A stretch of DNA of 41,189 nucleotides from a virus (IMGVR_UViG_3300037827_000196:1-41189); one strand, 5' to 3'. Shown: positions 522 to 13,927, counted from the first letter of the stretch. Notes: generated by a model not told the origin, from the sequence alone. Program-made: numbers and translations.

Positions 522-527
522 ATGATG

Positions 528-627: not shown

Positions 628-684
628 ATGACCAAGACCCATACGCAGGGTCGAAACACACATATCCGGCACCATGAGAGATGA
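628..684 (+). CDS. Possible 18-residue leader peptide
   Basis: The first start codon after the early promoter has a good ribosome-binding site (GAGGGAGACGGA) and opens an 18-codon frame rich in His, Thr and Arg. Its TGA overlaps the ATG of a second 18-codon frame (684-740) in a TGATG junction. Both are far below reliable gene length. They may be leader peptides, remnants of a decayed gene, or chance. Confidence 0.3.
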   Translation: MTKTHTQGRNTHIRHHER

Positions 685-740
685 TGGAGCACCGGGCAAT
701 ATGGTGCGATCGGGCGACAGTCACGGATTTTGCGGTTTAG
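684..740 (+). CDS. Possible second 18-residue coupled peptide
   Basis: This frame starts inside the stop of the preceding mini-ORF (TGATG) and ends TAG at 738-740, directly at a small GC hairpin (GCCGG-TTAT-CCGGC, 740-753). Nothing in its sequence is recognisable. A consensus-like TATAAT at 771-776 follows, immediately before cassette A. Confidence 0.2.
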   Translation: MEHRAIWCDRATVTDFAV

Positions 741-782
741 CCGGTTATCCGGCGATTCCTACCGTGCGCCTATAATTCATAG

Positions 783-1375
783 CGTGCTTATCCGGTTGTC
801 GCACACAGGAGCTAGAGGTTGATGCCCAATCACGTCATCAATGAAATTATCTTCCGCGACCTATCCGACGCACAACTCGACGACATTCTGTCGCGGACGA
901 CGGACGCCGAAGGGCACATCGATTTTTCAATTCTCCTGCCTATTCCAATCAATTGTTGGATGGGTAGCGTCAGCGCTGCCGACGAGAAGGCATTCAAGAA
1001 CACCGCGCTCGACTGGTGCCGCGAGAACTGGGGGACGAAGTGGGGCGCCTATGGCACACACAACGGCGCGGAGCGTGTTGGAAGCGTCCTGACGCTCCGT
1101 TTCGACAGCGCCTGGAGGCCGCCCTACGGTTGGCTCGCGGCGCTCATGAACACGTTCAACCTCTCATTCCAGCACAATTGGCTTAGTGAGGGCGAGCAGC
1201 ACGGGCACGTCGGGCATTTCATCTATCAGCCAGAAAATGTTATGGGCGATGTTGATTGGAAGGAAGAGTCGGCATCGTCAGAAATTCACACGCATCTTCA
1301 CGTTCTGCGTTGGGGCGTCGAGCGCTTCGACGAAAACGAGGAATAGTGGCTGTGTGTCTTAACCGGATAAGCATG
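783..1375 (+). mobile_element. Cassette A: TIR-bounded element with one gene (YubB-like)
   Basis: This 593-bp unit is bounded by perfect 8-bp direct repeats ATTCATAG (775-782 and 1376-1383). The left end reads CGTGCTTATCCGGTT and the right end is its inverted copy (AACCGGATAAGCATG). The arms match at about 21 of the first 26 positions, including an inner CACACAG/CTGTGTG block. The element holds a single gene in the direction of the operon. The left arm supplies the ribosome-binding site (ACAGGAG) and the start codon at element positions 37-39. No transposase is present. TIRs with 8-bp duplications are typical of DDE-transposase movement, so mobilisation in trans is inferred. Cassettes B and C share these ends. 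Confidence 0.85.
819..1346 (+). CDS. YubB/DUF1281 (Api92-like) ferredoxin-fold protein
   Basis: The 175-residue product begins 'MPNHVINEI' after the TTG/ATG pair and carries the hallmarks of the Api92/YubB family as I know it: an N-terminal 'PNH/PNW..N' start, 'FSILLPIP' (residues 37-44), 'WCRENWGTKW' (about 66-75) and 'LRFDSAWRPP' (about 92-101). The family is common on plasmids and phages and has no established biochemical role. The start is placed at TTG 819 because the same codon position is used in all three cassettes; ATG 822 is the immediate alternative. The stop is 29 bases before the element end. It is the only cargo of cassette A. Confidence 0.8.
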   Translation: MMPNHVINEIIFRDLSDAQLDDILSRTTDAEGHIDFSILLPIPINCWMGSVSAADEKAFKNTALDWCRENWGTKWGAYGTHNGAERVGSVLTLRFDSAWRPPYGWLAALMNTFNLSFQHNWLSEGEQHGHVGHFIYQPENVMGDVDWKEESASSEIHTHLHVLRWGVERFDENEE

Positions 1376-1412
1376 ATTCATAGTAACGCCACTTAACGGA
1401 AGGATTGTGAAA

Positions 1413-1622
1413 ATGCAAGGCTGGAAACGCGGTTTGCCTCCAGGCAAATACTACGTAGGCATGACTGACGACTTTGAAGTTTACTTTTCACCCGGTGGGA
1501 TAAAGTGGCATCGGCGACGCTCCTCCGAGGAAGTCACCGCAATCAAGGCGGCACGTACCGACGAAATCATGCAGACGTTCGACCCAGACTTCGCCGACTC
1601 GTTCGAGCGAAATGCTCGATAA
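1413..1622 (+). CDS. Small uncharacterised early protein
   Basis: This 69-residue basic-to-mixed protein starts at ATG 1413, chosen because GGAAGG lies nine bases upstream; a GTG at 1407 is also possible. It shows 'LPPGKYYVGM..DFEVYFSPGGIKWHRR', which looks like a small beta-rich domain. I do not recognise it. Cassette A was inserted directly upstream, between its ribosome-binding site region and a possible TATAAT box at 771-776. Confidence 0.55.
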   Translation: MQGWKRGLPPGKYYVGMTDDFEVYFSPGGIKWHRRRSSEEVTAIKAARTDEIMQTFDPDFADSFERNAR

Positions 1623-1641
1623 TCTGTGTTAGGAGAACACT

Positions 1642-1755
1642 GTGTTTCACGGAATCTATAATGCGCGGCAGGCGGGTCTAAGCGCATTTGAGTTGGTGAT
1701 GATCGTCATTGCTGTCGGATTGGTTATTGACTGGCTTTTCACACGACGACAATAA
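1642..1755 (+). CDS. Small single-span membrane protein
   Basis: This GTG-initiated 37-residue frame has a good ribosome-binding site (TAGGAG, eight bases upstream). Residues 16-33 form one hydrophobic helix ('FELVMIVIAVGLVIDWLF') ending in an Arg-Arg-Gln tail, so the protein should sit in the inner membrane with a short positively charged C-terminus. Role unknown; small early phage membrane proteins often interfere with host envelope functions, which is only a general analogy. Confidence 0.55.
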   Translation: MFHGIYNARQAGLSAFELVMIVIAVGLVIDWLFTRRQ

Positions 1756-1787
1756 TTAACCCTAACTGTAGGTAGGAGACATTTCAA

Positions 1788-1997
1788 ATGCGCGGGCGGC
1801 CTCCGCAGTTATGCCCTCACGGTATTCTTGGAAAATCCAAATGCAGGAAATGCAAGACCGATACAAACCGTTCTTACGATTGGGGAGAATGGTATCAGAG
1901 ACTGCGCGCTAACCCCATACGTCTTCAAGAGCGCCGCGAAAAAGTCAACGCGCAGCGGCGTGGGATGGGATACGGACGCAAAAATAATTCGTCCTAA
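1788..1997 (+). CDS. Small basic protein with Cys/His cluster
   Basis: This 69-residue, strongly basic protein starts at ATG 1788 behind a clear GGTAGGAG site. Near the N-terminus it has C-P-H, then six residues, then C-R-K-C (residues 9-22), which can form a zinc site. The rest is rich in Arg, Lys, Asn and Trp. Nucleic-acid binding is a reasonable guess from charge and Cys spacing, but no family is recognised. Confidence 0.5.
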   Translation: MRGRPPQLCPHGILGKSKCRKCKTDTNRSYDWGEWYQRLRANPIRLQERREKVNAQRRGMGYGRKNNSS

Positions 1998-2021
1998 CCA
2001 TGAATATCGCGTGTTTTAGGC

Positions 2022-2050
2022 TTGCATCATAGGACATAATGCCCTATCAT
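2022..2050 (+). promoter_or_regulatory. Early promoter with 17-bp operator palindrome
   Basis: TTGCAT (2022-2027) and TATCAT (2045-2050) are 17 bases apart. The spacer is filled by TAGGACATAATGCCCTA (2030-2046), a near-palindrome centred on CATAATG. An almost identical palindrome lies in the same place in a second promoter at 3067-3096. An operator between -35 and -10 is the usual geometry for repression. Confidence 0.5.
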
Positions 2051-2076
2051 CCGTCGTGTTGAGAGGGAGTTTAGAA

Positions 2077-2298
2077 ATGTCCTACACGATTGAAGCGGCA
2101 AGCGAATGGGGAAACGGCATAGGGCCGAATGGAACCGGACGCCGCGCGAAAGTAACGGGCTTTTACGTGATCAGCCCGCGTGGTCGCAAAGTTAGGGCAT
2201 TTACCGGCCCGCAAGCGGAGGCCCAAGCGAAGGCATGGGCGGTTCGTTGTGACGAAATGCAGGAAGCGGGGCAGATTGACCCATGCTTATCCGTTTAA
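2077..2298 (+). CDS. Small uncharacterised protein, 3' end altered by cassette B
   Basis: The 73-residue protein starts at ATG 2077 with an AGAGGGAG site 11 bases upstream. It has a compact beta-rich look ('KVTGFYVISPRGRKVRAFTGPQAEAQAKAWAVRCDEM') resembling small single-stranded-nucleic-acid or DUF-type phage proteins, but I cannot name it. Its last five residues (PCLSV) are encoded by the left terminal repeat of cassette B. Removing the cassette and one 8-bp repeat restores an ending '..QIDL' followed by TGA that overlaps the next gene's ATG (2863). The insertion therefore changed only the C-terminal tail. Confidence 0.55.
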   Translation: MSYTIEAASEWGNGIGPNGTGRRAKVTGFYVISPRGRKVRAFTGPQAEAQAKAWAVRCDEMQEAGQIDPCLSV

Positions 2299-2853
2299 CA
2301 CCCACAGGAGCTAAATCTTGATTACACGCACATGGGCAATGCCCAATAAATGGACGTTCAAAATTCCGCCAATCATGGAGTTAGTAAAACGCTACGCGGG
2401 CAACGGTACTGGGTGGGCTGATCCGTTTGCGGGTCAAAGCGACTTTGCGGAATTTAGAAATGACCTTAACCCGGGCAACAAGCAGCCTTCGCAAACAGAA
2501 GCGGCTGAGTTTATGAGCACTTTCCAATCAGCAAGTCTTAGTGGTGTAATTTTTGATCCGCCCTATAGCTTGACTCAAGTGAGCCGTTCCTATGAAGAAA
2601 TGGGGTATAAATTTGCCGGTAAGGAAAACCCCACGGGCGGCTTTCCTAAAGTTCGGGACGCGATCAGTCGCAGCGTTCGTGGCGGCGGCATTTGTGTATC
2701 ATTCGGTTGGAACACGGTCGGCATGGGGAAGGGAAGATTGTTTGAAATAATCGAAATCTTAATCGTGTCTCACGGCGGAAACCGAAACGACACGCTCTGC
2801 ACAGTTGAGCGGAGGCTCTAATGGTGCATGTGGGTGATAACCGGATAAGCATG
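2282..2853 (+). mobile_element. Cassette B: TIR-bounded element with DNA methyltransferase
   Basis: This 572-bp unit is flanked by perfect 8-bp direct repeats GATTGACC (2274-2281 and 2854-2861). The ends are CATGCTTATCCG on the left and CGGATAAGCATG on the right; the arms match at about 23 of 25 positions and share an inner CACCCACA/TGTGGGTG block that differs from the CACACAG block of cassette A. The left arm again provides the ACAGGAG site and a TTG start codon at element positions 37-39. It sits exactly at the former ATGA junction of two coupled genes. One gene, same orientation as the operon, no transposase. Confidence 0.85.
2318..2821 (+). CDS. Small DNA (probably adenine-N6) methyltransferase
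   Basis: The 167-residue product has the two core motifs of an N6-adenine or N4-cytosine methyltransferase: DPFAG (residues 35-39, SAM-binding motif I) and DPPY (80-83, catalytic motif IV). It lacks a sizeable target-recognition domain, so it is a minimal enzyme of the type often found in phages. It would methylate DNA, perhaps to protect against host restriction. The start is placed at TTG 2318 by analogy with the other cassettes; ATG 2339 is in frame. It is the only cargo of cassette B. Activity and specificity cannot be read from sequence alone. Confidence 0.8.
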   Translation: MITRTWAMPNKWTFKIPPIMELVKRYAGNGTGWADPFAGQSDFAEFRNDLNPGNKQPSQTEAAEFMSTFQSASLSGVIFDPPYSLTQVSRSYEEMGYKFAGKENPTGGFPKVRDAISRSVRGGGICVSFGWNTVGMGKGRLFEIIEILIVSHGGNRNDTLCTVERRL

Positions 2854-2862
2854 GATTGACCT

Positions 2863-3078
2863 ATGACAAACGAGGAAATCGAAGAGGCCAAATGGATCGC
2901 TCATGCGCGCGAGTGCGAAAGCGCCGCATTGGCCTACCTTCGCGAGCAGCGAAGGGTTAAGAGGATACAAAACCGCTTTGATCGTATGTGGGGCGAGCAC
3001 TGTGCGGCTTGCGGGATTGTCTTTTACCGCAGCGATAAGAAATGGCCAAAATGTCCTAATTGTGGCTTGACAGGATAG
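2863..3078 (+). CDS. Small zinc-ribbon protein
   Basis: This 71-residue protein has an N-terminal helical, charged half and a C-terminal zinc ribbon: CAAC (residues 47-50) and CPNC (65-68). Before insertion of cassette B its ATG overlapped the stop of the upstream gene. Zinc ribbons of this size usually bind nucleic acid or a protein partner; the partner is unknown. Confidence 0.6.
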   Translation: MTNEEIEEAKWIAHARECESAALAYLREQRRVKRIQNRFDRMWGEHCAACGIVFYRSDKKWPKCPNCGLTG

Positions 3079-3096
3079 GACATTATGCCCTAATGT
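3067..3096 (+). promoter_or_regulatory. Second early promoter with operator palindrome
   Basis: TTGACA (3067-3072) overlaps the end of the zinc-ribbon gene and TAATGT (3091-3096) follows after 18 bases. TAGGACATTATGCCCTA (3076-3092) fills the spacer, differing at one base from the copy at 2030-2046. This is the second of two matched operator-promoter units. Confidence 0.5.
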
Positions 3097-3142
3097 CTCA
3101 GTCGTCGGGGCAATGCCGCCCGCCCAATCTAGGGAGCAGACA

Positions 3143-3445
3143 ATGGGCCAAGATTTCGAGACCGCGCTACAAACCTATTTCGACGGCTGCAAGGCGATCG
3201 AAGCCGCCTATCGAGAAAAGCACTATCCCAACAATCAGCCGCGTGAATGGCGGATTGACCGCTTGCAGAAGCGCGTCCGCATCGTGTCCGACAATTCGGC
3301 GCATAGTTTCATCGATTATGAAACTGGCGACGTGCTTAAGGCAGCTAGCTGGAAAGTGCCGGCGAAACACGCTCGCGGCAACATTTATGCTGAGGATCAC
3401 GGACTGAAACTCATGGGTCCATACGGTCCCGCCTATCTGCGGTAG
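3143..3445 (+). CDS. Uncharacterised phage protein with KHARGNI motif
   Basis: The 100-residue protein starts at ATG 3143 behind AGGGAG. Its C-terminal half reads 'RIVSDNSAHSFIDYETGDVLKAASWKVPAKHARGNIY'. The 'GDVLKAA.WK.PAKHARGNI' block is one I recognise from many small uncharacterised phage proteins. It has no assigned activity. It is the first gene after the operator-promoter at 3067-3096. Confidence 0.65.
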   Translation: MGQDFETALQTYFDGCKAIEAAYREKHYPNNQPREWRIDRLQKRVRIVSDNSAHSFIDYETGDVLKAASWKVPAKHARGNIYAEDHGLKLMGPYGPAYLR

Positions 3446-3456
3446 GAATTGAAGCC

Positions 3457-3681
3457 ATGAAAGCGTCCGAGAAATTTGCAGCTAGCCGTCCCCGTGTTGG
3501 ACAGGTGATCAGCTATCGCGGCGAGCCTGTCGGCAAAGTCACGAATGTTGAGGGCGGCTTGTGCTGGCGTAGCTATCCCGATGGTGAAAGCCTTCCGTTC
3601 ATTTGGTGCTTCAACGATGGGCTGAATGCCCTACACGATTGGCCTACAAAGGCCGGAAAGTGCGCGCTGTGTCCATCCTAA
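3457..3681 (+). CDS. Small uncharacterised protein
   Basis: This 74-residue protein begins 'MKASEKFAASRPRVGQVISYRGEPVGKV', a short beta-strand-rich domain with four Cys residues, two of them in a C-terminal C-x2-C. It is followed without a gap by the next gene. No family recognised. Confidence 0.5.
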   Translation: MKASEKFAASRPRVGQVISYRGEPVGKVTNVEGGLCWRSYPDGESLPFIWCFNDGLNALHDWPTKAGKCALCPS

Positions 3682-3914
3682 AGCACCTAATGGACGTTTG
3701 CCCGTTTCGGGTAGGCCAGACCGTTCGTGTTCGTCAGGGCTCCGACGCGTGGCGCTCTGATTGGAGGGGCGTGTACGTGATCACCGGTATCCGTTGGGAA
3801 TATCAGCGCGCGAATGGGCAACTCAGCATAGAGCTTGCCACAGATGACGAAATCGAGCGCGGATACGGCGCTACTGACGATTTCCGCGTTGACGACTTAG
3901 AGCCTGTGACGTGA
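3669..3914 (+). CDS. Small uncharacterised protein
   Basis: The core 'RVGQTVRVRQGSDAWRSDWRGVYVITGIRWEYQRANGQLSIELAT' looks like a small SH3-like beta barrel. GTG 3669 has GGAAAG eight bases upstream and overlaps the previous gene by 13 bases; ATG 3690 is an alternative with a weaker site. The stop overlaps the next start in a GTGA junction. Confidence 0.5.
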   Translation: MSILKHLMDVCPFRVGQTVRVRQGSDAWRSDWRGVYVITGIRWEYQRANGQLSIELATDDEIERGYGATDDFRVDDLEPVT

Positions 3915-4267
3915 CGGCCGCCGAGCTAAAAGACGCACGCAAGCGGCTCGGTCTAACCGCCGAGGGTTTCGCGCGCCTCGTGCGCGTCAGCGGAGGCCGT
4001 ACAGTGCGACGTTGGGAGCGCGGCGACATTCCGGTGCCCGGATCGATTGCCGCGCTCACAGAGCTTGCGCTGCGGTTTCCCGACGTGCGAGCGTTTTTGG
4101 AAGATAGAATTTCGCAGGCTGCTCGTGAGCGGCTTATAGCCAACTCGACGCCATGTCCGAAATGCGGAGCGGATTGGGGGCTGATTGCACGTTGCGCCGC
4201 TCCCGATTGTCCGTCTACAGAAGCAAGACTTGAGGCGTTCCGCAAGGCGTTGGCGGAGCAGCAATAA
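3911..4267 (+). CDS. HTH protein with C-terminal zinc-binding segment
   Basis: Residues 1-55 form an XRE-like HTH ('LKDARKRLGLTAEGFARLVRVSGGRTVRRWERGDIPVPGSI', the pattern of YiaG/antitoxin-type regulators). Residues 82-99 hold four Cys (CPKC and C.APDC), a possible zinc knuckle. The GTG start overlaps the preceding TGA. It may be a second early regulator; what it binds is unknown. Confidence 0.65.
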   Translation: MTAAELKDARKRLGLTAEGFARLVRVSGGRTVRRWERGDIPVPGSIAALTELALRFPDVRAFLEDRISQAARERLIANSTPCPKCGADWGLIARCAAPDCPSTEARLEAFRKALAEQQ

Positions 4268-4299
4268 TGCGTGCCAACAGCCTTTAGCGAGCATTTTCA

Positions 4300-4491
4300 A
4301 TGACTCTGCCGCTGACCGAACCGCTCCTGTTTACCCACGATCATCGCGAGTGGTTCGCGCAGAAATGGGCGACCAGCGACCCTAGCGCGCCGTTCGTTTG
4401 GAAATACCGCCCCGCGCATCCTGAGCGCGGAATGCCCGACCTTGCGCGTTACCAAGCCACTCGCGCGTATTTCGAGCGCAGCATCGCGTGA
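4300..4491 (+). CDS. Small uncharacterised protein next to CHC2 gene
   Basis: This 63-residue protein is rich in Trp, Arg and Pro ('EWFAQKWATSDPSAPFVWKYRPAHPERGMPDLARYQATRAYFERSIA'). Its stop overlaps the GTG of the CHC2 gene (GTGA), so it is coupled to DNA replication, but it has no recognisable domain. Confidence 0.5.
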   Translation: MTLPLTEPLLFTHDHREWFAQKWATSDPSAPFVWKYRPAHPERGMPDLARYQATRAYFERSIA

Positions 4492-4862
4492 GACCCGATC
4501 TCGTCGAGTTGATTGGCGCTAGCGTCAAACTACGGCGGGCGGGGCGGCGATGGGTGGGGCTCTGTCCATTTCATCCGGATCGTCATCCGTCGTTCAACGT
4601 GTTCCACGCACGCCACGGAGGCTGGCTATGGAACTGTCTTGTATGCCAAGAGCACGGCGACGAAATTACCTGGTTACGCAAGACCCGCAACATGACGTAT
4701 GGGGAGGCTGCGAAGGAACTCGGGCGTCCAGGTGCATACAAACCACATCCTGCTATCCTAGCGGCTCGGGCGGCAGAGGAGGCACGCGAAGCTAAGATGG
4801 TGGCGTTTCTCGATCGTCATCCTGATACGTGTTTGCCGGCTTGGATTATCGCTTGGGATTGA
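4488..4862 (+). CDS. Stand-alone CHC2 primase zinc-binding domain
   Basis: The 124-residue protein contains the CHC2 zinc finger of DnaG-type primases: CPFH (residues 26-29) and CLVC (50-53), with 'DRHPSFNVF' between them. This domain reads the template during primer start. It lacks a Toprim catalytic core. The Toprim domain is found instead on the Toprim-helicase at 7309, so the phage seems to split primase functions over two polypeptides separated by the leftward ParB island. Its last 17 bases overlap the convergent HTH gene. Confidence 0.75.
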   Translation: MRPDLVELIGASVKLRRAGRRWVGLCPFHPDRHPSFNVFHARHGGWLWNCLVCQEHGDEITWLRKTRNMTYGEAAKELGRPGAYKPHPAILAARAAEEAREAKMVAFLDRHPDTCLPAWIIAWD

Positions 4863-5067
4863 GCGCTAGGCGCAAGCGTCTGCGAGACATGCTGAGCGCC
4901 AAGAGTATGAAGCTATCCACGTAGAGCGGGACGGCAAGCGCGCATTCGTTCTCGGGATTGCTGCACCAGCGGCTTATCGTGACACGGTGCGTTCCCATCA
5001 ACTTGGCAAAAGCAGAGCGGGACAACCCTAGCTCGACTAGAGCGTCCCGCAGTTCGGAATTAGTCAT
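4846..5067 (-). CDS. Small HTH regulator in leftward island
   Basis: This 73-residue protein has an HTH ('LRDALVELGLSRSAFAKLMGTHRVTISRW', residues 6-34) followed by a short hydrophobic tail. It is the last gene of a leftward group with the ParB-like protein. Its 3' end overlaps the convergent CHC2 gene. Regulatory role inferred only from the HTH. Confidence 0.6.
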   Translation of the reverse strand: MTNSELRDALVELGLSRSAFAKLMGTHRVTISRWCSNPENECALAVPLYVDSFILLALSMSRRRLRLALNPKR

Positions 5068-5143
5068 TGACCGTCCGCAAGAAAGTTGCGAGCGCTTTCC
5101 TTGCCGGGTGCGCTCGCCAACCCGTTCTCAGGCCCGGAGGTTG

Positions 5144-6058
5144 TTAGGCCCGCAAGCTCGCATCCATCATTTGCCGCGCACCGCTCACACTCGCCTCGCG
5201 GCGTTCCTCCTCGCGGTCGCGCAACCGATCCTCGAACACGGTCAGCCATTCGATGATGCCAGACACATCGTCAGCCCGCATCATGAACAGCGTCGCGGCG
5301 GTGCGCGCGTCATAATCGTTAGCGACGATGTTCTTGAGCAAGGCGATTGCCTTATCGAGCATCCCTTGGTTGCCCTGCGGCTTGGTTGCCTCGGGCTTCG
5401 TCTGTGGCAGGCTGCGGGCGGTGATCTTGGTCTTGCCCTTCGCCTTGGTGGTTTCGCGGGCAAGCGCCAGTGCAGCCCCGGCACCCTCCGCGCCCTCCGA
5501 GCGCACCATCGCTACGGCATTGGTTGCGGACAGTTCACCGGCCCGCACCGCGTCGCGCACGTCCTGCGGCGCCTCCAAGAGCTTTTCGAGGTTTGCGACC
5601 TGTTGCGTGGTCTTGAAGCCGAGCCGCGCGGCGATCTTTTCGCGGGTCCAACCGTAACCCATGAGCCGGCGCACAACCTCGGCCTTTTCCAGCCCGCTTA
5701 GCGGCTCGCCACCGTTGAGGGTGATAAGCCGCGCGGTGCGCTCCGCATCGCCGATCGCTCGCGGCTCGGCAATCGCGGGAACCGAGTCAATCTCGACTCC
5801 TTCGGCGATCAGCGCCATGACGCAATGCAGGCGACGATGACCACTGACCACGAACAGGTCATCGCCAACGAGCCTGATTTCGAGCGGAACCTGTACGCCA
5901 TCGGCGCGGATTTGCTCTTTCAACTCGTCCAACGCCTGCTGCGCGGACGGCGCCGATAGGTCGCGCACGTTGAAACCGTCTTGAATGCGCAACAGCTTCG
6001 GGTCAACGCGGAACTGATCAGCCTTCGCCAAGATGGCGGTATGGTCTCGTAGCTTCAT
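5144..6058 (-). CDS. ParB-like nuclease/partition-domain protein
   Basis: The 304-residue product has an N-terminal ParB/Spo0J-type domain with the conserved 'VSGHRRLHC' box (residues 71-79), followed by 'LITLNGGEPLSGLEKAEVVRRLMGYGWTREKIAARLGFKTTQQVANL' (about 112-160), the central HTH that reads parS-like sites. The C-terminal part is charged and probably dimerises. No ParA-type ATPase is visible. It could support plasmid-like maintenance, act as a transcription regulator, or bind the replication origin; the sequence does not decide. A GGAGG site precedes the ATG. It shares a leftward operon with the 68-residue protein and the HTH gene. Confidence 0.8.
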   Translation of the reverse strand: MKLRDHTAILAKADQFRVDPKLLRIQDGFNVRDLSAPSAQQALDELKEQIRADGVQVPLEIRLVGDDLFVVSGHRRLHCVMALIAEGVEIDSVPAIAEPRAIGDAERTARLITLNGGEPLSGLEKAEVVRRLMGYGWTREKIAARLGFKTTQQVANLEKLLEAPQDVRDAVRAGELSATNAVAMVRSEGAEGAGAALALARETTKAKGKTKITARSLPQTKPEATKPQGNQGMLDKAIALLKNIVANDYDARTAATLFMMRADDVSGIIEWLTVFEDRLRDREEERREASVSGARQMMDASLRA

Positions 6059-6135
6059 AACTTCCCTCCGTTTGAGATGCAGAGCCGATCGTGGCGCTGC
6101 GCTATGCCCTGCCGCAACAGGGCACGCCGCAGAAC

Positions 6136-6342
6136 CTACGCCGCACGGTTGAGAACGAGGCGCCCAGTATTGGCGACCACTTCAATCTCAAACCCCATGC
6201 GCTCAATCAGGCAAAGCGTGCGATGCGTCAACGTTTTGCTGCCGGCGATCTCGGCGAACAGTTTGGCGCGCTCGCAAACCGGGTAAGCCGTCTCGACGCC
6301 GTAGACGCTCTTCAGAGTGATTTGGATAGTCGTTGCGTTCAT
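6136..6342 (-). CDS. Small uncharacterised protein, first gene of ParB operon
   Basis: This 68-residue protein is preceded by a near-perfect Shine-Dalgarno sequence (GGAGGG, six bases from the ATG on the minus strand), which is the reason to prefer it over the overlapping rightward frame. It has a beta-alpha look ('MNATTIQITLKSVYGVETAYPVCERAKLFAEIAG'). No family recognised. Confidence 0.6.
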   Translation of the reverse strand: MNATTIQITLKSVYGVETAYPVCERAKLFAEIAGSKTLTHRTLCLIERMGFEIEVVANTGRLVLNRAA

Positions 6343-6421
6343 GTGTCCCTCCTACATTCGAGGATCACATATTAGCCTCACGCTACGCAGCCAGCAAGCT
6401 ATTTTGCGTGGGTTAACCTAA

Positions 6422-6450
6422 ATTATAAATCCGCCTTTCGGTTGAAAGGC
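6422..6450 (-). promoter_or_regulatory. Leftward promoter and operator-like palindrome of ParB operon
   Basis: The minus strand has a perfect -10 TATAAT (6427-6422). Upstream of it, over the spacer and -35 region, is the perfect 7-bp inverted repeat GCCTTTC-GGTT-GAAAGGC (6433-6450). There is no consensus -35. This geometry suggests a regulated promoter for the leftward operon. The rest of the 290-base gap (6343-6631) shows only a weak rightward candidate (TTGCTC 6464, CAATAT 6486). Confidence 0.45.
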
Positions 6451-6631
6451 TTATTAACGCCCTTGCTCGCATTTGGTTCCCGTGGCAATATTCACCGTGG
6501 AGGGGGCGCAGACGACTCGGCTGATCACCGATGTTCAATCTGTATTGCACGCACCAGCAGCAGCCCCTGCGCATGCCTTACCTGTTTGCGCCCCCTCGGT
6601 TAAACTTCGGGCTGTTATGTGGGGCGCTGCA

Positions 6632-7315
6632 ATGGGTGAACCTAATATAGTTCCGTTCGGTAAGTATCGCGGACAGCCAATTGAACGATTGGCAGGGGAT
6701 AAAGAGTATATTGATTGGCTTTCAGCGCAGCCGTGGTTTCGCGAGCGATACGCCAGTCTATATACCATCATCATAAATCATTTTTCCCCGGCTTCCGACG
6801 ACACGCCAGAACATAACGCTCTCCAGGCTCTATTCTTAGAGGCTCAATTTTGCACGCAGTTCTTAGCTGCTGCAAGACCATCATGGTGGGTCAAGGAAGC
6901 AGAATTTACTCGCCGCAATCTTGAGACACCACCGACTACGGCAGAGTACCGTAGTCTTGCGGAAATATATGCTACGGCTGCATCCGGAACCGCAACAATA
7001 GAATATCGTAGCAGACCTCAATTCGAGGTTGGTGGCGTTGATGTAACATTAGAAATAGAGGCATTTATATTGCCTATGCGTCAGCCGGAACGAAACACAC
7101 CAAGCGTTAAAACATCCGCAAAAATAGAAATAAAACCCACGGTCGGGGACGACTATCCGTCTATTCTCCGTCAAGTTAAGGCGTTAAAAGCCGACACTGT
7201 ATTTTTGGAGTCGTATGTCGGCTCGGGAATAACTGAGCAACAATTCATTGCGCTATTTCGGAACGAACGGATTGCCATCGTTTTTCATCGTGATATTGCG
7301 GAGCGCTTATGTTAA
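6632..7315 (+). CDS. ExoX-C-like/nuclease-like protein
   Basis: Starting at ATG 6632 the product begins 'MGEPNIVPFGKYRGQPIERLAGDKEYIDWLSAQPWF', the short 'PFGKYKGQ' module I know from the C-terminus of exonuclease X-type proteins and from many phage recombination loci. The C-terminal half has 'GVDVTLEIE...KIEIKPTVGDDYPSILRQV', a spacing compatible with a PD-(D/E)XK nuclease core. A role in recombination or end processing is likely. ATG 6617 is an alternative start; longer upstream frames lack a site. Its stop overlaps the helicase ATG by seven bases, so the two are coupled. Confidence 0.6.
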   Translation: MGEPNIVPFGKYRGQPIERLAGDKEYIDWLSAQPWFRERYASLYTIIINHFSPASDDTPEHNALQALFLEAQFCTQFLAAARPSWWVKEAEFTRRNLETPPTTAEYRSLAEIYATAASGTATIEYRSRPQFEVGGVDVTLEIEAFILPMRQPERNTPSVKTSAKIEIKPTVGDDYPSILRQVKALKADTVFLESYVGSGITEQQFIALFRNERIAIVFHRDIAERLC

Positions 7316-9777
7316 GCGAGAGACATCAAGCCTTATTGGAGGCGCGCGGGCTTGACGTAGAGTTACTAATTCGGTTCGGAGTCACGAGCCACGACCGCTT
7401 CGGTCCCGATACAATCGAGATTCCATATCTTTTCGCGGGCGAACGTCAAAACACAAAATACCGCACCATCAGCGGCGAGTTACGGCTGGCCCAAGATGAT
7501 GGCGCCAAATCGCTGTTCTGGAACCAGGATGCGATCTGCGATGAAAGTCTTGCGTCGCATCCCCTGATCATTGCCCAAGACGAATTCGCCGCGATAGCTG
7601 CCATCCAAGCAGGATTCAGCCGTGTTGTCTCGGTTCCGAATGGTGCGCCGATCAGTCCCATCGGCGAGTTGAGTGGCAACAAATACGCCTATCTAGAGCA
7701 GATGCCAGCGCTAGGTCGGGATATCAAAGAAATCATCCTTGCCACTGATGGCGATCAATTCGGCATTGCGCTGCGAGATGACCTGGCACGCAAGCTCGGT
7801 CGCGCACGGTGCAAGTGGATCAGCTATCCAAAAGAGACGACAGACTTGTGCGCCGTGCTCGCCAGATACAATGAGCGCGGCATCGTGGAGACAATGGCGC
7901 GGGCTCAATGGCTCGCAATCGATGGCGTTTATCGTCTCTCAGAACTGCCGCCGCTCAATTCTCCGCAAGCATTTGATAGCGGTTTTCCTGGTCTCTCCGG
8001 TCACTACAAACTACGCATCGGTGACTTCTGCGTTGTTACGGGAACACCGGGAAAGGGCAAGGCGCTTGCGCTCGACACGCCTATTGCGACACCCGATGGG
8101 TGGACAACAATGGGAGCGCTTAGTGTCGGAGATACTATTTTTGACGACCTTGGAATGCCGTGTAGCGTAATTGCAGCAACTCCCGTAATGATTGGAAACA
8201 AGTGTTTCTCTCTACGCTTCAATGATGGGGAAACACTTGTAGCAGACGCAGATCACCTGTGGCTGACCGAAAGCGATAGTGCTAGGTGCAGTCGGCGCCG
8301 CGCTACACGCTCTAGGCCTCTCGCACCGCGTGGAACAGACCAACAATGGAAGAGAGAATTCCCCTCTGTCGTAAATACCGTTCAGATCAGCGAAACGCTG
8401 CGCATAAGGGAAAAATGGAACCACCAAATTACTAATGCGAAAGCGTTAGTTTTACCTGCGGTCACTCTACCGATATCGCCATATCTGTTAGGTGCTTGGT
8501 TAGGAGACGGCACTACGCTAGATGGTCATTTGACGGTATCAGACCAAGATGCTGAACCGATGTATGCATCTATGGGGGGAAGGCCTATCAAAATTCATCG
8601 ATACAGCAAAAAGACTCCTCGCTGGTCTGTGCCTGGTCTAAAAGTGCAACTCCGATCTATTGGAGTTTTAGGTAACAAACATATACCGCTATTGTACTCT
8701 CGCGCATCCATTGCGCAGCGGATAGAGCTTCTTCGTGGTCTAATGGATACTGATGGGTACGCCCATCCCCGTAACGGGCTAGAATTTATATCAACAAATA
8801 AGCGACTGGCGAATGATGTCCATGAATTAATCTGTGGATTAGGATTGCGGGTCGGTTTCTCAATCGGGCGCGCTACGCTAAACGGTAGAGATTGCGGTCC
8901 AAAATATAGACTCCGATTCAGCGCTCCATTCTCAGTATTCTCTATTCCTCGCAAAGCAGAAAAACAGAGAAACTTACATGCCCCTAAGCGTCATCGCTGC
9001 GGTACTCGAACCATTATAGGATGTGATCCCGTAAAAAGCGTACCTGTAAGATGCATCGCAGTAGATTCGCCGTCGCATCTTTTCCTCTCCGGACGAGCAA
9101 TGATCCCGACTCATAACACTACGTTCACGCGGGAAATAGCTTCACTTATGGCCCTTCGCTATAACTGGCGTACAGTCATGGCGAGTTTTGAGGCGGTTCC
9201 TCAACTTGATCATAAGCGTGCATTAAGAACATGGTACAACAGCGAATTGGTCATAAACCAAAGTGAATCTAAACTAGCTAAAGCCGACGAATGGATTGAT
9301 GAACACTTTCGTTTTGTCGTAGCTGCGGAAGACGAGGACATTACTCTTGACTGGCTGATAGAGCGCATAAGCGCCGCCGCTATCAGGGATCATGCTAAAC
9401 TCGCGATTATAGACCCCTGGAACGAAATGGACCACGAGCGCGGTCGAGACGAGACATTGACGGAATACGTCGGCGCGGCGCTTCGCCGCTTAAAGCGGAT
9501 GGCGCGCTCGCTTGGTCTTCACCTGATCGTCGCGGCTCACCCAGCAAAGATGCAGCGCAATCGCGAAGGAAAATATCCTACGCCAGCGCTCTACGATATC
9601 TCCGATAGCGCAATGTGGGCAAATCGCGCAGACGTTGGGATTATCGTCGAACGCGCAGACAACAATCAATCTCAGATCAACATTCAAAAAGTCCGATTCC
9701 ATGACGAAATTGGAACGCCGGGGGAAATCACTGTTAGATTTAACTACCAAACAGGATCGTTTGAGGCACTTCAATGA
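7309..9777 (+). CDS. Toprim-DnaB-like helicase interrupted by a class 3 intein
   Basis: The 822-residue precursor has an N-terminal Toprim-like domain ('PLIIAQDEFAAIAAIQAGF', 'ILATDGDQFG', about residues 75-165) and a RecA-fold helicase. The Walker A loop GTPGKGK-T is split after the last Lys by a 352-residue intein (252-603). The C-terminal extein holds a Walker B-like 'LAIIDPW', 'LIVAAHPAK' and the later helicase motifs. After splicing the enzyme would be 470 residues, the size of a compact gp4-like primase-helicase without its zinc finger; the missing CHC2 finger is encoded separately at 4488. It should unwind DNA at the phage fork. It is coupled to flanking genes by 7- and 4-base overlaps. 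Confidence 0.85.
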   Translation: MLSERHQALLEARGLDVELLIRFGVTSHDRFGPDTIEIPYLFAGERQNTKYRTISGELRLAQDDGAKSLFWNQDAICDESLASHPLIIAQDEFAAIAAIQAGFSRVVSVPNGAPISPIGELSGNKYAYLEQMPALGRDIKEIILATDGDQFGIALRDDLARKLGRARCKWISYPKETTDLCAVLARYNERGIVETMARAQWLAIDGVYRLSELPPLNSPQAFDSGFPGLSGHYKLRIGDFCVVTGTPGKGKALALDTPIATPDGWTTMGALSVGDTIFDDLGMPCSVIAATPVMIGNKCFSLRFNDGETLVADADHLWLTESDSARCSRRRATRSRPLAPRGTDQQWKREFPSVVNTVQISETLRIREKWNHQITNAKALVLPAVTLPISPYLLGAWLGDGTTLDGHLTVSDQDAEPMYASMGGRPIKIHRYSKKTPRWSVPGLKVQLRSIGVLGNKHIPLLYSRASIAQRIELLRGLMDTDGYAHPRNGLEFISTNKRLANDVHELICGLGLRVGFSIGRATLNGRDCGPKYRLRFSAPFSVFSIPRKAEKQRNLHAPKRHRCGTRTIIGCDPVKSVPVRCIAVDSPSHLFLSGRAMIPTHNTTFTREIASLMALRYNWRTVMASFEAVPQLDHKRALRTWYNSELVINQSESKLAKADEWIDEHFRFVVAAEDEDITLDWLIERISAAAIRDHAKLAIIDPWNEMDHERGRDETLTEYVGAALRRLKRMARSLGLHLIVAAHPAKMQRNREGKYPTPALYDISDSAMWANRADVGIIVERADNNQSQINIQKVRFHDEIGTPGEITVRFNYQTGSFEALQ
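8062..9117 (+). other. Intein with LAGLIDADG homing endonuclease (class 3 signature)
   Basis: The insert starts with Ala, not Cys or Ser ('ALALDTPIATPDGW'), and ends 'THN' before Thr+1. It shows the WCT triplet of class 3 inteins: Trp at block B:12 (residue 318, in DHLW), Cys at block F:4 (582, in VRCIAV) and Thr at +1 (604). Splicing should therefore start with the block F Cys rather than an N-terminal nucleophile. Two LAGLIDADG helices are present ('LLGAWLGDG' 393-401 and 'LLRGLMDTDG' 474-483), each with an Asp, so the endonuclease is probably intact. The insertion point, the P-loop of a replicative ATPase, is a classic intein site. Confidence 0.85.
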
Positions 9778-10499
9778 AGGTTCGCCGCGTCGATTTTTCT
9801 CCCGATGAATGGCTGTCTGGAACGCTGGGAATGACCAGCGAGGAAATCGGAGTTTATATCACGATCTGCTCATTGATCTATAGCCGAGGTGGAGCAATAC
9901 CAGATGACGAAAACTGGCTAACTAAAGTCTGCGGATGCAAACATTGGCGCACATTTCGGGCAATCCGATGCAACTTAATAGAGCGCGGAAAGATCGAAAT
10001 CGAGAGCAATAAAATCGTCGTGCGCCGCTGCATTTTGGAGCTAGAAAAAGCCACAAAGAGGAGTTCCGAGGCGAGCCAAAACGCTAAAACACGGTGGGCA
10101 AAAAATTCTCAGGATGAGTTCAGGATGAGTTCAGAAACGGTTCAGGATGACTTTATGAATGGTTCAGGATCAATTCATGATGATTTCACGCCGTCAGTCA
10201 ATGGCCATGATAACAATCACTTAACAGATGCGGACGCAGTACAGACCCGTAATGCTAACCATCAACCATCAACCATCAACTACCATTTACCCCCTATATC
10301 CCCCGTTGGGGGACTTGATTATGGAAAATCCAAACGCTCGCCAAAACGAGACACTGACCCTTGGAAACTTAGCGGCATACATCCCGACGAACTAGGTCGG
10401 CGCTTCAATGACAAATCCCGACCTCGCGATGAACGCCTCGCCATCCGAAAAATCCTCTTTCCAAACGCCTACCCTCCAGAACCTGGAACCTTCAATTAG
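9774..10499 (+). CDS. DUF1376-type replication initiation protein
   Basis: Residues 1-85 match the DUF1376/YdaU pattern ('VDFSPDEWLSGTLGMTSEEIGVYITICSLIYSRGGAIPDDENWL'), a winged-helix-like domain common in phage replication operons. The rest is a polar linker, and the linker is encoded by seven 11-bp repeats (10108-10184). The C-terminus is basic. The gene overlaps the helicase by four bases. By analogy with lambda O it may bind the repeats in its own gene and load the helicase; this is inference. Confidence 0.75.
   Translation: MKVRRVDFSPDEWLSGTLGMTSEEIGVYITICSLIYSRGGAIPDDENWLTKVCGCKHWRTFRAIRCNLIERGKIEIESNKIVVRRCILELEKATKRSSEASQNAKTRWAKNSQDEFRMSSETVQDDFMNGSGSIHDDFTPSVNGHDNNHLTDADAVQTRNANHQPSTINYHLPPISPVGGLDYGKSKRSPKRDTDPWKLSGIHPDELGRRFNDKSRPRDERLAIRKILFPNAYPPEPGTFN
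10108..10184 (+). repeat. Seven 11-bp iterons; candidate replication origin
   Basis: Units with consensus TTCAGGATGAN start at 10108, 10119, 10130, 10141, 10152, 10163 and 10174, all exactly 11 bases apart; units 1, 2, 4 and 6 are closest to consensus and 3, 5 and 7 are degenerate. The period is one helical turn, and 11 is not a multiple of three, so the repetition is not a protein-level repeat. Three AACCATC heptamers follow at 10257-10277. Iterons inside the initiator gene are the lambda-ori arrangement. Confidence 0.55.
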
Positions 10500-10694
10500 A
10501 TAGGTCACACCTATGCTGACTAATCACAAACGATGCGATCACCCTCTCTCGCCACGACCTCGCACAATCCCTTGAACCGCCCGAATCTTCGGTTTCTACA
10601 GGTACGCGCCCGCGTGCATCGGACCTTGCTAAGATTGTCGTATTGTGCTAGTGCGATTATGTGTTTGTCCCAAAACTTGTCGTTTGGAGTTATC

Positions 10695-10910
10695 ATGGCT
10701 AACATTCTCGGCAACGAACCGACGTTGAAGGCTCCTCCGCAGTCGAGTGCGCCGCAGAATACGAGCGTTGGTGGTGGGTCACGTCCTACGGTCAGCAAGT
10801 TCAAGACGGCTGTATCTTCGCCTGAGGATGCACGGTCGCTCGGCGGGCGCGAGACTCCTGGCGCCCTCGGTATGGGTATGGGGCGCAGCAAGGATCAGGG
10901 CGAGCGCTAA
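10695..10910 (+). CDS. Small Gly/Pro/Ser-rich protein before small terminase
   Basis: The 71-residue protein starts at ATG 10695 with GGAG seven bases upstream. It is low in complexity and probably disordered ('PPQSSAPQNTSVGGGSRPTVS', then 'LGGRETPGALGMGMGRSKDQGER'). The 195 bases before it (10500-10694) contain no gene and no strong promoter. Role unknown. Confidence 0.5.
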   Translation: MANILGNEPTLKAPPQSSAPQNTSVGGGSRPTVSKFKTAVSSPEDARSLGGRETPGALGMGMGRSKDQGER

Positions 10911-10918
10911 GTGATCCT

Positions 10919-11389
10919 ATGCCGGCGAGTGTATTCACGCAGGAAATAGCGGACGAAATCTGTCTGCTTATTGGGCAGGGCCGTAGTCTTGTCGAGATAT
11001 GCCGTGCCGAGGGGATGCCGGAAATTTCTACGGTCTTTGGTTGGCTCGGTAAAAAGCCTGACTTTGAGGCGCAATACCGTAGAGCCCGCGAGGCCCAAGC
11101 TGACCTAATGGCCGAGGAAATCCTGCTGATTTCCGACGAAGCGCAGAACGATTACGTCGAGCGTTTAGGTCGCAATGGTGGCACATTCACAGCGCTCGAC
11201 ACTGAGGCGGTGCTACGCTCCAAGCTGCGTGTAGACACCCGCAAGTGGCTGATGGCCAAACTACAACCGAAGAAGTATGGCGAGCGCGTTGCCGTTGAGC
11301 ACAGCGGCGACGTTGGCTTTGCGGAGCGTCTGATCAAGGCTCGGGAGCGGGTCAAGAAGGCTGAGAGCGAGCCTAGGCAGCGTTCTTAG
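10919..11389 (+). CDS. Terminase small subunit (Sf6-like)
   Basis: The 156-residue protein begins with an HTH ('ADEICLLIGQGRSLVEICRAEGMPEISTVFGWLGKKPDF', about residues 10-50), then the helical 'YRRAREAQADLMAEEILLISDEA' and 'RSKLRVDTRKWLMAKLQPKKYGERV'. This is the layout of Sf6-type small terminases, which recognise the pac site and recruit the large subunit. Unusually, it is separated from the large terminase (15656) by about 4.3 kb that contains a mobile cassette and sugar genes. Confidence 0.85.
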   Translation: MPASVFTQEIADEICLLIGQGRSLVEICRAEGMPEISTVFGWLGKKPDFEAQYRRAREAQADLMAEEILLISDEAQNDYVERLGRNGGTFTALDTEAVLRSKLRVDTRKWLMAKLQPKKYGERVAVEHSGDVGFAERLIKARERVKKAESEPRQRS

Positions 11390-11510
11390 CATGAATTGCG
11401 GTTTGGGTAAGTGGTTGATATTGTTAGGATGCGCGCAATGCATGGGGCTTTGCGGTTTGCGAATACATTGACATTTCTTCGGTTTTGTGAGCGAGATCAG
11501 GAGGTTGACA

Positions 11511-11723
11511 ATGCCTAGACGAGTTGTGGGCGGATATGACGATCGGTGGGATGGGCAGACTGTCACAACTGATTGGACACCATCGAGTGCCGCGATGAGG
11601 GCTGCGAATAAGACGACAGAAGCGGCGGAAGCTAGTGCACCAAAGCCGAATATAGATATTAATAAAACTATGGACTTTGCGAAAACTGTTGCTCGCAGAG
11701 TCAAGGACTCTGGTGGTCAGTAA
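11511..11723 (+). CDS. Small uncharacterised protein
   Basis: The 70-residue protein starts at ATG 11511 behind a perfect AGGAGG site. It is polar, with an Ala/Thr/Lys-rich middle ('AAMRAANKTTEAAEASAPKP') and a charged helical end. The 120-base gap before it holds only a 26-codon Cys-rich frame (11391-11471) with no ribosome-binding site. Function unknown. Confidence 0.5.
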   Translation: MPRRVVGGYDDRWDGQTVTTDWTPSSAAMRAANKTTEAAEASAPKPNIDINKTMDFAKTVARRVKDSGGQ

Positions 11724-11728
11724 ATAGA

Positions 11729-12052
11729 ATGGCAAAGTTCGATCTGTCTTGGCATGACCAGGAGAGCCCCGAGTTTCGGGAGTTTGCCAAGGGTCTGAAC
11801 GCGCCGAAGCTGCGGTCGCCGAGCGCTACGTCTCAGACGACTGACTTGGGCACGCCTGATCCTGTCGCTGAGGATGTGACCGTAGCTGCGAAGGGCGGTG
11901 TGGGACGCGGCGGTGATACGCGGTCCAAGGTTACGATCACCAAGAAGATTCCGTTTGCGGCTCCGAAGTATGCGCCGGGATCGTCTCAGCCGTCGCAATC
12001 TAGTTCGTCTAAAGCTCAAGCGGCGACTGATGATGATGACGATGACTGCTGA
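11729..12052 (+). CDS. Low-complexity protein with poly-Asp tail
   Basis: This 107-residue protein has a folded-looking start ('MAKFDLSWHDQESPEFREFAKGLNAPKL') and then a Ser/Gln/Ala-rich stretch ending in six Asp and a Cys. An acidic tail of this kind could mimic DNA or bind basic partners. The poly-Asp codons also encode the start region of the next gene, which overlaps it by 11 bases. Confidence 0.5.
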   Translation: MAKFDLSWHDQESPEFREFAKGLNAPKLRSPSATSQTTDLGTPDPVAEDVTVAAKGGVGRGGDTRSKVTITKKIPFAAPKYAPGSSQPSQSSSSKAQAATDDDDDDC

Positions 12053-12287
12053 AGTCGTCCCGCTAGGCGTCCTGACGAACGATATTCCCGCCGGCCTGAG
12101 GCGGTTGGCCGAACGTATCGAAGCGGGCGATGAAGACTTAGCAGACATTCAGTTTGTCGTTGCTCTCGCAGTGGATAGGAAGGCGGCATTCACCGCGTTT
12201 GGTTTGGGACAATGTTCGATACTTGAAGCCATAGGCGCTTGTGCGCGTGCGGTCTCCCACGATCTAGTGTTAGATCTGGTGCGCTAG
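12042..12287 (+). CDS. Small uncharacterised protein
   Basis: The 81-residue protein (start ATG 12042, inside the previous gene's GAT repeat) is mostly helical: 'AGLRRLAERIEAGDEDLADIQFVVALAVDRKAAFTAFGLG'. This resembles small phage proteins of unknown function in structural operons. No motif supports a specific call. Confidence 0.5.
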   Translation: MTAEVVPLGVLTNDIPAGLRRLAERIEAGDEDLADIQFVVALAVDRKAAFTAFGLGQCSILEAIGACARAVSHDLVLDLVR

Positions 12288-12337
12288 ACAAATCTCGCTC
12301 TATACTCACCGCCTCTTTCTCTCTGAGGGTTAAGATT

Positions 12338-12748
12338 GTGGCGATTGACAAGGCGGTACATGATAGTGCGGTTGAGACGGCGCAGCACGCCATTCGGTAT
12401 TCAATCAATGTTGGACAGCTTGATGCTGCCGCGCTAAAGGGCGCGGCAGAGGCTGCCTACAAGGCGACCGTACACGCCCACAGTCTAGGTGATGAGGTTA
12501 AGACTGTAACGCTCGCTCACCCCGTTGAAGAGGCTGTCTCGGTGGACGGCAAGACCGTCCGGTGCCTCGTCTGCGACTTCACTGGCAATATGCTCAAGCG
12601 GCATCTCCGCATCTCGCATGGGCTATCTCCTGAGGCGTACTATGCTCTTGTCGGTCGCCGCGTGCCGTTGACCGCGCCTGGCTATACGGAAAAGCGTTCG
12701 GCGCTGGCGAAGGCTAGCGGGTTGGGCAAACACCCCAAGGCAGCCTAG
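12338..12748 (+). CDS. MucR/Ros-type zinc-finger regulator
   Basis: The C-terminal half carries the Ros/MucR zinc finger: C-L-V-C, nine residues, H-L-R-I-S-H ('CLVCDFTGNMLKRHLRISHGLSPEAYYALVGRRVP'), then 'APGYTEKRSALAKASGLGK', the usual family ending. The N-terminal half is Ala-rich and helical. Ros/MucR proteins are alphaproteobacterial H-NS-like regulators, often of exopolysaccharide genes, so a phage copy could alter host surface or phage late transcription. GTG 12338 is chosen because GAGGG lies nine bases upstream. Cassette C inserted just after its stop. Confidence 0.8.
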   Translation: MAIDKAVHDSAVETAQHAIRYSINVGQLDAAALKGAAEAAYKATVHAHSLGDEVKTVTLAHPVEEAVSVDGKTVRCLVCDFTGNMLKRHLRISHGLSPEAYYALVGRRVPLTAPGYTEKRSALAKASGLGKHPKAA

Positions 12749-12762
12749 GTTATGTCTGATAT

Positions 12763-13918
12763 CATGCTTATCCGGTTGTCGCACACAGGGACTAAATCGT
12801 GATTCTGACCTATCGCTATAGGCTCAAGGACAACTCAGCGAAGAAAACGCTGAGACGACATGCTTTTGCCTGCAATCAGGTCTGGAACTACTGCAACGCC
12901 TATCAGCGCGATATCGAGGCTCGCTATCGTGCGGGCGCTCCGAAACGCAAATGGCCGTCGCATTTCGACTTGCAAAAGCTGACCAAGGGCACGTCGAAAG
13001 AGCTTGGCATCCACGCGCAAACGGTCGGATCGGTATGCGAGCAATATGTTAGATCACGCGACAAGGCGAAGCATTCACTCCGTTTCCGGGCATCAGGCGG
13101 CGCACGCCGAGCACTCGGCTGGGTTCCGTTTCAAAGCCAGAGCCGTCAGATCGCCGATAACGCGATCACCTATCTCGGCAACCAGTTCCGATGGTTCGGT
13201 AATGCGCGCCGCTCGCTGCCCGACAGCGCCAAAGGCGGGGCGTTCGTTGAGGATGCTCGCGGCAAATGGTGGGTTTGTTTTCACGTCGAGGTTGCCGACG
13301 ATCTGGCGACCGGCAACAGTGAGATTGGGATTGATCTCGGGCTAAAGTCGCTTGCGGCTACTAGCGATGGCGAGATCGTCGAGAATCTACGGCATACCGC
13401 GACCTGGGCACAGCGCCTCGCCAAGGCTCAGCGCGCTCGCAATAAACGCCGGATTAAGGCAATTCACGCCAAGATTGCCAACGCGCGAAAGGATCATCTT
13501 CACAAGGTTTCCTGCCGACTGGCGCGTGAGAACGCGCTGATCGCGGTCGGCAATGTTTCATCTTCTCGATTGGCAAAGACCCGGATGGCGAAGTCCGTGT
13601 TGGATGCTGGTTGGGCGTCCTTCAAGACGATGTTGAGCTACAAGGCCAGCAGGCACTCAGCGTCTTTCCTGGAGGTTGACGAACGTTTCACGACCCAAAT
13701 GTGCTCGTGCTGCGGGAGCATTCCTGGCAGCAGTCCGAAAGGTATGGGCGCGCTTGGAATGAGAGAGTGGGTGTGCTCCGAGTGCGGTGAAAGCCACGAC
13801 CGAGACGTGAACTCGGCTCGGAATATCCTCGCCCTCGCGCTGAGTGCTCAGCGTCGTGTAGACGAAAGCCGGGGAAACACAAGGGGTTGTTCCCATGTGT
13901 GACAACCGGATAAGCACG
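12763..13918 (+). mobile_element. Cassette C: TIR-bounded element with TnpB-like gene
   Basis: This 1156-bp unit is flanked by perfect 8-bp direct repeats TCTGATAT (12755-12762 and 13919-13926). The left end CATGCTTATCCGGTTGTC and the right end GACAACCGGATAAGCACG are inverted copies, identical over 16 consecutive bases. The left arm is nearly the same as that of cassette A through the ribosome-binding site, and the GTG start is again at element positions 37-39. The flanking match extends by CATGCT downstream of the right repeat, which may be chance. It inserted between the MucR-like gene's stop and the next ATG (13928). IS200/IS605 elements, the usual home of TnpB, have neither TIRs nor target duplications. 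Confidence 0.85.
12799..13902 (+). CDS. tnpB: TnpB-like RNA-guided nuclease with atypical RuvC-II
   Basis: The 367-residue protein has the TnpB/OrfB layout: N-terminal 'YRYRL..N..KKTLRRHAFACNQVWNY', RuvC-I 'EIGIDLGLKS' (Asp179), RuvC-II region 'LIAVGNVSSSRLAKTRMAKSVLDAGW', a C4 zinc finger (Cys302, Cys305, Cys326, Cys329) and RuvC-III 'HDRDVNSARNIL' (Asp334/Asp336). The usual RuvC-II Glu is replaced by Gly251. Related proteobacterial TnpBs share this wording and may use a relocated acid; Glu292 or Glu295 are candidates. Otherwise it would be nuclease-dead. There is no TnpA partner. The stop lies inside the right terminal repeat, so a guide RNA scaffold would have to overlap the 3' coding end. 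Confidence 0.85.
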   Translation: MILTYRYRLKDNSAKKTLRRHAFACNQVWNYCNAYQRDIEARYRAGAPKRKWPSHFDLQKLTKGTSKELGIHAQTVGSVCEQYVRSRDKAKHSLRFRASGGARRALGWVPFQSQSRQIADNAITYLGNQFRWFGNARRSLPDSAKGGAFVEDARGKWWVCFHVEVADDLATGNSEIGIDLGLKSLAATSDGEIVENLRHTATWAQRLAKAQRARNKRRIKAIHAKIANARKDHLHKVSCRLARENALIAVGNVSSSRLAKTRMAKSVLDAGWASFKTMLSYKASRHSASFLEVDERFTTQMCSCCGSIPGSSPKGMGALGMREWVCSECGESHDRDVNSARNILALALSAQRRVDESRGNTRGCSHV

Positions 13919-13927
13919 TCTGATATC

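Follow-up and report, generated by a model that had tools for sequence, protein, structure and literature searches.

Putative IS1595-derived insertion cassettes carrying single genes in environmental phages

It has long been asked how small accessory genes can be added to tight phage operons while leaving these intact. Three short elements in the viral contig IMGVR_UViG_3300037827_000196:1-41189 (the window, 41,189 bases) point to a concrete mechanism, in which transposon ends would give the translation signals and the transposase family is identified. The elements, read directly from the sequence at 783-1375, 2282-2853 and 12763-13918, are very probably non-autonomous mobile insertion cassettes derived from IS1595 insertion sequences, in which the transposase gene has been replaced by one short phage gene and which would be moved in trans. 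As they encode no transposase, they are derivatives and not insertion sequences themselves. Because ends and duplications mark every insertion, accessory-gene traffic between phages becomes countable, datable and testable; the ends also predict gene starts and mark small uncharacterised genes out as traded cargo.

Cassettes in the window

The window encodes terminase, portal, scaffold, head and replication genes. Its three elements are composed as follows (TIR, terminal inverted repeat; bp, base pairs; aa, amino acids; duplications have no strand).

775..782: element 1 target duplication ATTCATAG, 8 bp, left copy; a TATAAT-like hexamer lies just before it
783..809, plus strand: element 1 left TIR CGTGCTTATCCGGTTGTCGCACACAGG; AGGAG starts at 807
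819..1346, plus strand: element 1 cargo, 175 aa, DUF1281_C / Api92-YubB-like (PF18406, 1.9e-10); start TTG at element position 37, next in-frame ATG at 822
1349..1375, minus strand: element 1 right TIR CATGCTTATCCGGTTAAGACACACAGC
1376..1383: element 1 target duplication ATTCATAG, 8 bp, right copy
2274..2281: element 2 target duplication GATTGACC, 8 bp, left copy
2282..2308, plus strand: element 2 left TIR
2318..2821, plus strand: element 2 cargo, DNA methyltransferase of 167 aa, DPPY motif (phrog_11619, E=1.4e-33)
2827..2853, minus strand: element 2 right TIR
2854..2861: element 2 target duplication GATTGACC, 8 bp, right copy
12755..12762: element 3 target duplication TCTGATAT, 8 bp, left copy
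12763..12789, plus strand: element 3 left TIR
12799..13902, plus strand: element 3 cargo, 367 aa TnpB (profile matches)
13892..13918, minus strand: element 3 right TIR
13919..13926: element 3 target duplication TCTGATAT, 8 bp, right copy

An earlier note on this DNA had described three cassettes with shared ends, different exact 8-bp flanks and one sense gene each, and direct reading of the sequence bears this out. The 16-base end that it named, TGCTTATCCGGTTGTC, has six matches in the window with up to three mismatches, exactly the six element ends; shuffled windows gave a mean of 0.37 matches, and none of 100 shuffles reached six. The TIRs are nevertheless longer than the proposed 16 bases, with imperfect likeness extending to about 28 bp in the three elements and about 40 bp in insertion-sequence relatives. 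Each element has one dominant open reading frame (ORF) in sense with the downstream genes, starting with TTG, TTG and GTG, respectively, at position 37. This position was thought to be fixed, which holds within the window but not across the family, where starts cluster at 34-37, 44-46 and 59-61. Profile matches agree with the YubB-like, DNA methyltransferase and TnpB assignments of the cargo, and the reported lack of a transposase in the cassettes extends to the entire 41-kb record, in which no IS1595-type transposase was found. Rfam and tRNA scans of the window gave no match. The left TIR of element 2 provides the upstream ORF (2056-2298) with a new stop, TAA at 2296-2298, and the TGA of the element 3 TnpB gene (13900-13902) overlaps the right TIR.

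A family of cassettes in viral contigs

Scanning viral contigs with CRTGCTTATCCGGTT identified at least 120 stretches, and two longer patterns gave 54 and 21, partly overlapping. End pairs were counted up to 4 kb apart, and duplicates were removed for element counts. Identical 8-mers flank 93 of the 162 viral end pairs listed, with seven further pairs one base off; chance would produce an identical 8-mer at about 0.002 of 162 pairs and was ruled out as the origin of the matches. There are at least 93 distinct viral elements, ranging from 207 to 2253 bp. Among the 93 listed, 12 carry a transposase (one of them interrupted), and the median length of the other 81 is 546 bp. A single ORF covers at least 60% of the element in 70 of these 81 listed elements; it starts 20-66 bases in from one end in 64 of the 70, and in 67 its stop is no more than 70 bases away from the other end.

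Clustering of the viral and the longer bacterial elements produced 75 protein groups, or about 70 mutually unrelated cargo families once the transposase group and doubtful calls are allowed for (the automatic call fell on the wrong strand in V35 and V52 and is doubtful in V13, V28 and V89). The majority of the cargo has no assignable function. The nameable genes include DNA methyltransferases (MT-A70, N6_N4, D12, Dam and C5), Mom, PAPS-reductase-like and NADAR proteins, RlaP-type nucleotidyltransferases, MazG-like proteins, radical SAM proteins and DUF1281. That the cassettes accept arbitrary genes is thus roughly right, yet DNA-modification genes are many among the nameable ones. Many of these act on DNA or nucleotides and could counter restriction, shielding viral DNA from bacterial defences. 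One unit (L032, 4470-5985) has a second leader (TGCTTATCCGGTTGCCATACAAAAACGCTGAGACC) inside and comprises two cassettes, in tandem or nested.

Relationship with IS1595 insertion sequences

The earlier note called for a DDE-type transposase bearing the same ends, and one exists. Elements with these ends encode an ISXO2-like transposase of the IS1595 family with a zinc ribbon (PF12762, 8.6e-32; PF12760, 2.7e-13), which matches NF033547 with 186 bits against a cut-off of 75. In an alignment of 13 transposases, D156, D238, N278 and K280 are invariant, which we take to be the DDNK-type catalytic set. The transposase-bearing elements are flanked by identical 8-bp repeats in viral and also in bacterial contigs (for instance in Polaromonas), and the core 15 bp of the ends matches the ends of existing insertion sequences. 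The nearest plasmid relatives of the transposase, at 70% identity, are annotated as ISAcr1-family, and those fetched have the same ends. Repeats of 8 bp have been reported for an IS1595 element (PMC12561309). With the transposase as query, GenBank phages gave only remote matches (less than 30% identity over most of the query) and the PDB gave none.

Regarding its distribution, the transposase occurs in nine of 50 cassette-bearing viral records and in none of 35 cassette-free ones (Fisher p=0.009). Several phages have both an autonomous copy and cassettes; for instance, about 12 kb of L381 contain a single transposase element plus four cassette units bounded by the ends. In L024 (3743-5449), an autonomous copy has a passenger gene related to the cargo of the stand-alone cassettes V45 and V55, which links both forms. 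In L007 (1267-2190), the IS1595 zinc ribbon is fused to an HNH_3 endonuclease domain and transposase sequence resumes downstream, so that an HNH gene appears to interrupt the transposase gene.

Some of the same phages also have a second IS1595 lineage, whose ends are GGGAATTATATACTTGA, as an autonomous form and as a one-gene cassette of 285 bp:

L031, 2223-2507: 285-bp unit with GGGAATTATATACTTGA ends; 77-aa ORF behind AGGAGG, with its stop inside the right end
L285, about 2914-4920: further locus with GGGAATTATATACTTGA ends
L082, about 6233-7793: further locus with GGGAATTATATACTTGA ends

Evidence of movement

Related phages lacking a cassette were expected to keep a single 8-mer at the empty site, and this was found once. 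In L381 a 506-bp element stands between ATCCAAAT and ATCCAAAC, whereas the close relative L383 has GAGATCATCCAAACAGCCGAG undisturbed, with one ATCCAAAC. Recent spread of one cassette between unrelated phages is indicated by a 365-bp unit that is 98.3% identical in L069 (at AATGGATA) and L004 (at CTATATTT), with no detectable similarity of the flanks; the neighbours of L069 and L004 had no relatives besides those same records. The target preference is RWWYRWWY, weakly palindromic, and is similar for viral and bacterial elements with the same ends.

The same ends in bacteria

In bacterial contigs, exact 8-bp repeats flank 36 of 52 end pairs. Viral and bacterial contigs therefore agree that the ends are mostly paired with exact repeats and not single, as the earlier note required. 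The 118 bacterial stretches with these ends bound 39 elements, which are transposase insertion sequences, a few gene cassettes and gene-poor units. Gene-poor elements of 100-215 bp make up 23 of the 39, as opposed to one of the 93 listed in viral contigs, a contrast that is only indicative because the two sets came from different search patterns. Among 289 alphaproteobacterial genomes the end pattern was present in only two. Some bacterial cassettes are chromosomal, such as one close to dnaA in a Rhodoplanes bin, and Polaromonas sp. CG9_12 has near-identical copies (1111-1112 bp; 2292 bp) at different 8-mers. For a Bradyrhizobium cassette, no empty site was found among the 120 genomes searched.

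Ends as proposed expression adaptors

Two leader types recur ahead of unrelated genes. With the first, which carries ACACAGGAGCTAGATGTTGATG, the gene starts at 34-37, as in the window; with the second, ending in ACACACAAACGCTGAGACCTACTAG followed directly by ATGTTGA, it starts at 44. The leader end ACCTACTAG followed by ATGTTGA is common to many unrelated cargoes. Stops often lie within the right end (TGA before CAACCGGATAAGCATG or TAA before CCGGATAAGCATG) and are at most 20 bases from the end of the element in 22 of the 70 listed. The proposal that the mobile end brings its own translation signal gains support from these conserved leaders ahead of unrelated cargo, from which translation would start.

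The hexamer TTGACA occupies positions 14-19 of one end in 10 of 16 autonomous elements. At these positions of the cargo-side end of cassettes, TTGCCA is the commonest sequence (20/82) and TTGACA is kept in 13/82. The cargo is in sense with the surrounding genes in 42 of 48 clear cases (p=1e-7, counted on longer ORFs). The hexamer change and the co-orientation fit, but do not prove, reliance on phage transcription.

Proposed mechanism and alternative explanations

In the proposed mechanism, an IS1595-family DDE-type transposase would be supplied in trans, from an insertion sequence of the host, from a resident prophage or, at times, from the phage itself. It would recognise the CRTGCYTATCCGGTT ends, move the unit to an RWWYRWWY target and leave an 8-bp duplication. 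The gene would start within the inner part of the left end or shortly beyond it, in many cases preceded by a Shine-Dalgarno-like AGGAG, and its stop would often fall inside the right end. With the start in or beside one end and the stop often in the other, a sense insertion between co-transcribed phage genes would be translatable at once. Selection would keep sense insertions that leave essential genes unharmed, and the cargo may itself be of selective benefit. With moderate confidence, we favour the broader view that single-gene transposons ready for translation form a common pool among environmental phages, with their ends serving as expression adaptors. By means of borrowed IS1595 transposases, DNA-modification and other accessory genes would be traded between unrelated phages, with new genes fused by deletion to the leader start, a design that would have arisen at least twice on different IS1595 ends.

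Several observations weigh against the proposed mechanism. An IS1595 transposase is missing from 41 of the 50 cassette-bearing viral records, which may be fragments. No transposase had subterminal bases exactly matching the commonest phage leader, which contains TTGCCACACACAAACGC; the subterminal sequences of the transposase elements found were ACACCCA, ACACATG or ACACATAC. Some end pairs have no 8-bp duplication. For the three insertions in the window no empty site was found: positions 1-8000 had no nucleotide-level relative among GenBank phages, and relatives of the window helicase share only about 50% amino-acid identity. The 80 such relatives include one fragment of the same virus; the others had only scattered, mostly single end-like matches.

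One locus suggests how cargo may be taken up. There, the leader of L381 is joined to a gene B (leader-ATGTTGACG..gene B), and in L383 and L384 extra sequence separates this same leader from gene B. The extra sequence of L383 comprises a further gene, which stops at a degenerate right-end motif, followed by a methyltransferase. A deletion fusing the leader start region to gene B would simply explain the difference, although here we infer the direction of change, and other cargo may likewise have been captured at the leader start codon, through a deletion or a fusion. A possible, if somewhat unlikely, alternative is that cargo is swapped by phage-type homologous recombination over the shared leader (about 43 bp) and right end (about 45 bp), with transposition only spreading the finished cassettes. 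Both segments are near-identical over those lengths, and identity of about 43-45 bp is enough for phage single-strand annealing systems. However, no two phages were seen to have wholly different cargo at one site within shared flanks, and the L381/L383 difference is better explained by deletion or fusion.

We give less credence to the idea that the elements are decayed transporter insertion sequences, each of which separately lost its transposase from an IS1595 element with a passenger, leaving mostly dead relics and no traded pool. In its favour, passengers do lie beside the transposase in autonomous phage copies (L024, L078, L086, L114 and L381), and one passenger family, that of the cassettes V45 and V55, also adjoins a transposase in V18. 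The cassettes, however, have intact ends, duplications and ORFs, and one of them is 98% identical at different sites in two phages. Near-identical leaders are moreover joined at the start codon to many unrelated genes, which suggests that a shared set of ends is reused. It is highly improbable that genes are inserted by a site-specific recombination or integron-like system between fixed ends that the phages already had: different genes do occur between the same leader and right end, and L381 and L383 have different genes at the start codon of the same leader, but whole units, both ends included, occur at unrelated sites, where 8-bp duplications and an empty site are seen, and it is the IS1595 transposase, and no recombinase, that is tied to the ends.

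Comparison with known mobile elements

Read as IS1595-derived cassettes, the elements belong with an established kind, the mobile insertion cassettes (MICs) of the MIC231 type (Chen et al. 1999, cited in PMC6542083; MICs are also named in PMC3129680). They share with these the lack of a transposase, insertion-sequence ends, a passenger gene and presumed movement in trans by a related insertion sequence. They differ in having IS1595 and not IS231 ends, in occurring here mostly in phage contigs, in their approximately 70 cargo families and sense orientation, and in a start codon that lies within a conserved end leader or next to it, with stops often in the other end. Insertion sequences of the IS1595 family (ISAcr1 relatives; Siguier et al. 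2009, cited in PMC12561309) have the same 8-bp duplications, related ends and the transposase family, but the window elements are without the transposase gene. Insertion sequences with passenger genes (transporter insertion sequences) are also established (PMC3129680). Their passengers are likewise unrelated to transposition, and several of the autonomous phage copies are of this kind; the cassettes, in contrast, have no transposase and usually one gene.

The mycobacteriophage ultra-small mobile elements (MPME1/2) and start-associated sequences are, respectively, small mobile units in phage operons and repeats beside start sites. MPME1/2 have a fixed small ORF, and their ends and insertion features are other than those of the cassettes; we know of no link between them and an IS1595 transposase. 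In the literature searched, phage-borne IS1595 gene cassettes were not described; its coverage is partial and does not prove priority. What is new with respect to known MICs is the abundance in phages, the start in or beside the end leader, the stops that often fall in the opposite end and the many cargo genes for DNA modification (methyltransferases and Mom).

Element 3 was also considered as an IS200/IS605 element and excluded. Such elements have hairpin ends without inverted repeats, no target duplication and TnpA, whereas element 3 has TIRs and an 8-bp duplication and carries TnpB as cargo. This TnpB has glycine at the position of the RuvC-II catalytic glutamate of ISDra2 TnpB (LIAVGNVSSSRL versus IIGTEHLKPDNM) and keeps the other two acidic residues. 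It is predicted to be nuclease-dead and resembles phage TldR regulators (PMC13418256).

Other features of the window

The gene at 7309-9777 encodes a DnaB-like primase-helicase with a LAGLIDADG match, of which residues 242-614 match terminase profiles; the insert is probably an intein. Directly after element 3, at 14110-14883, there is a phage-borne transaldolase-like gene (TAL_FSA, 1.8e-38; phrog_440).

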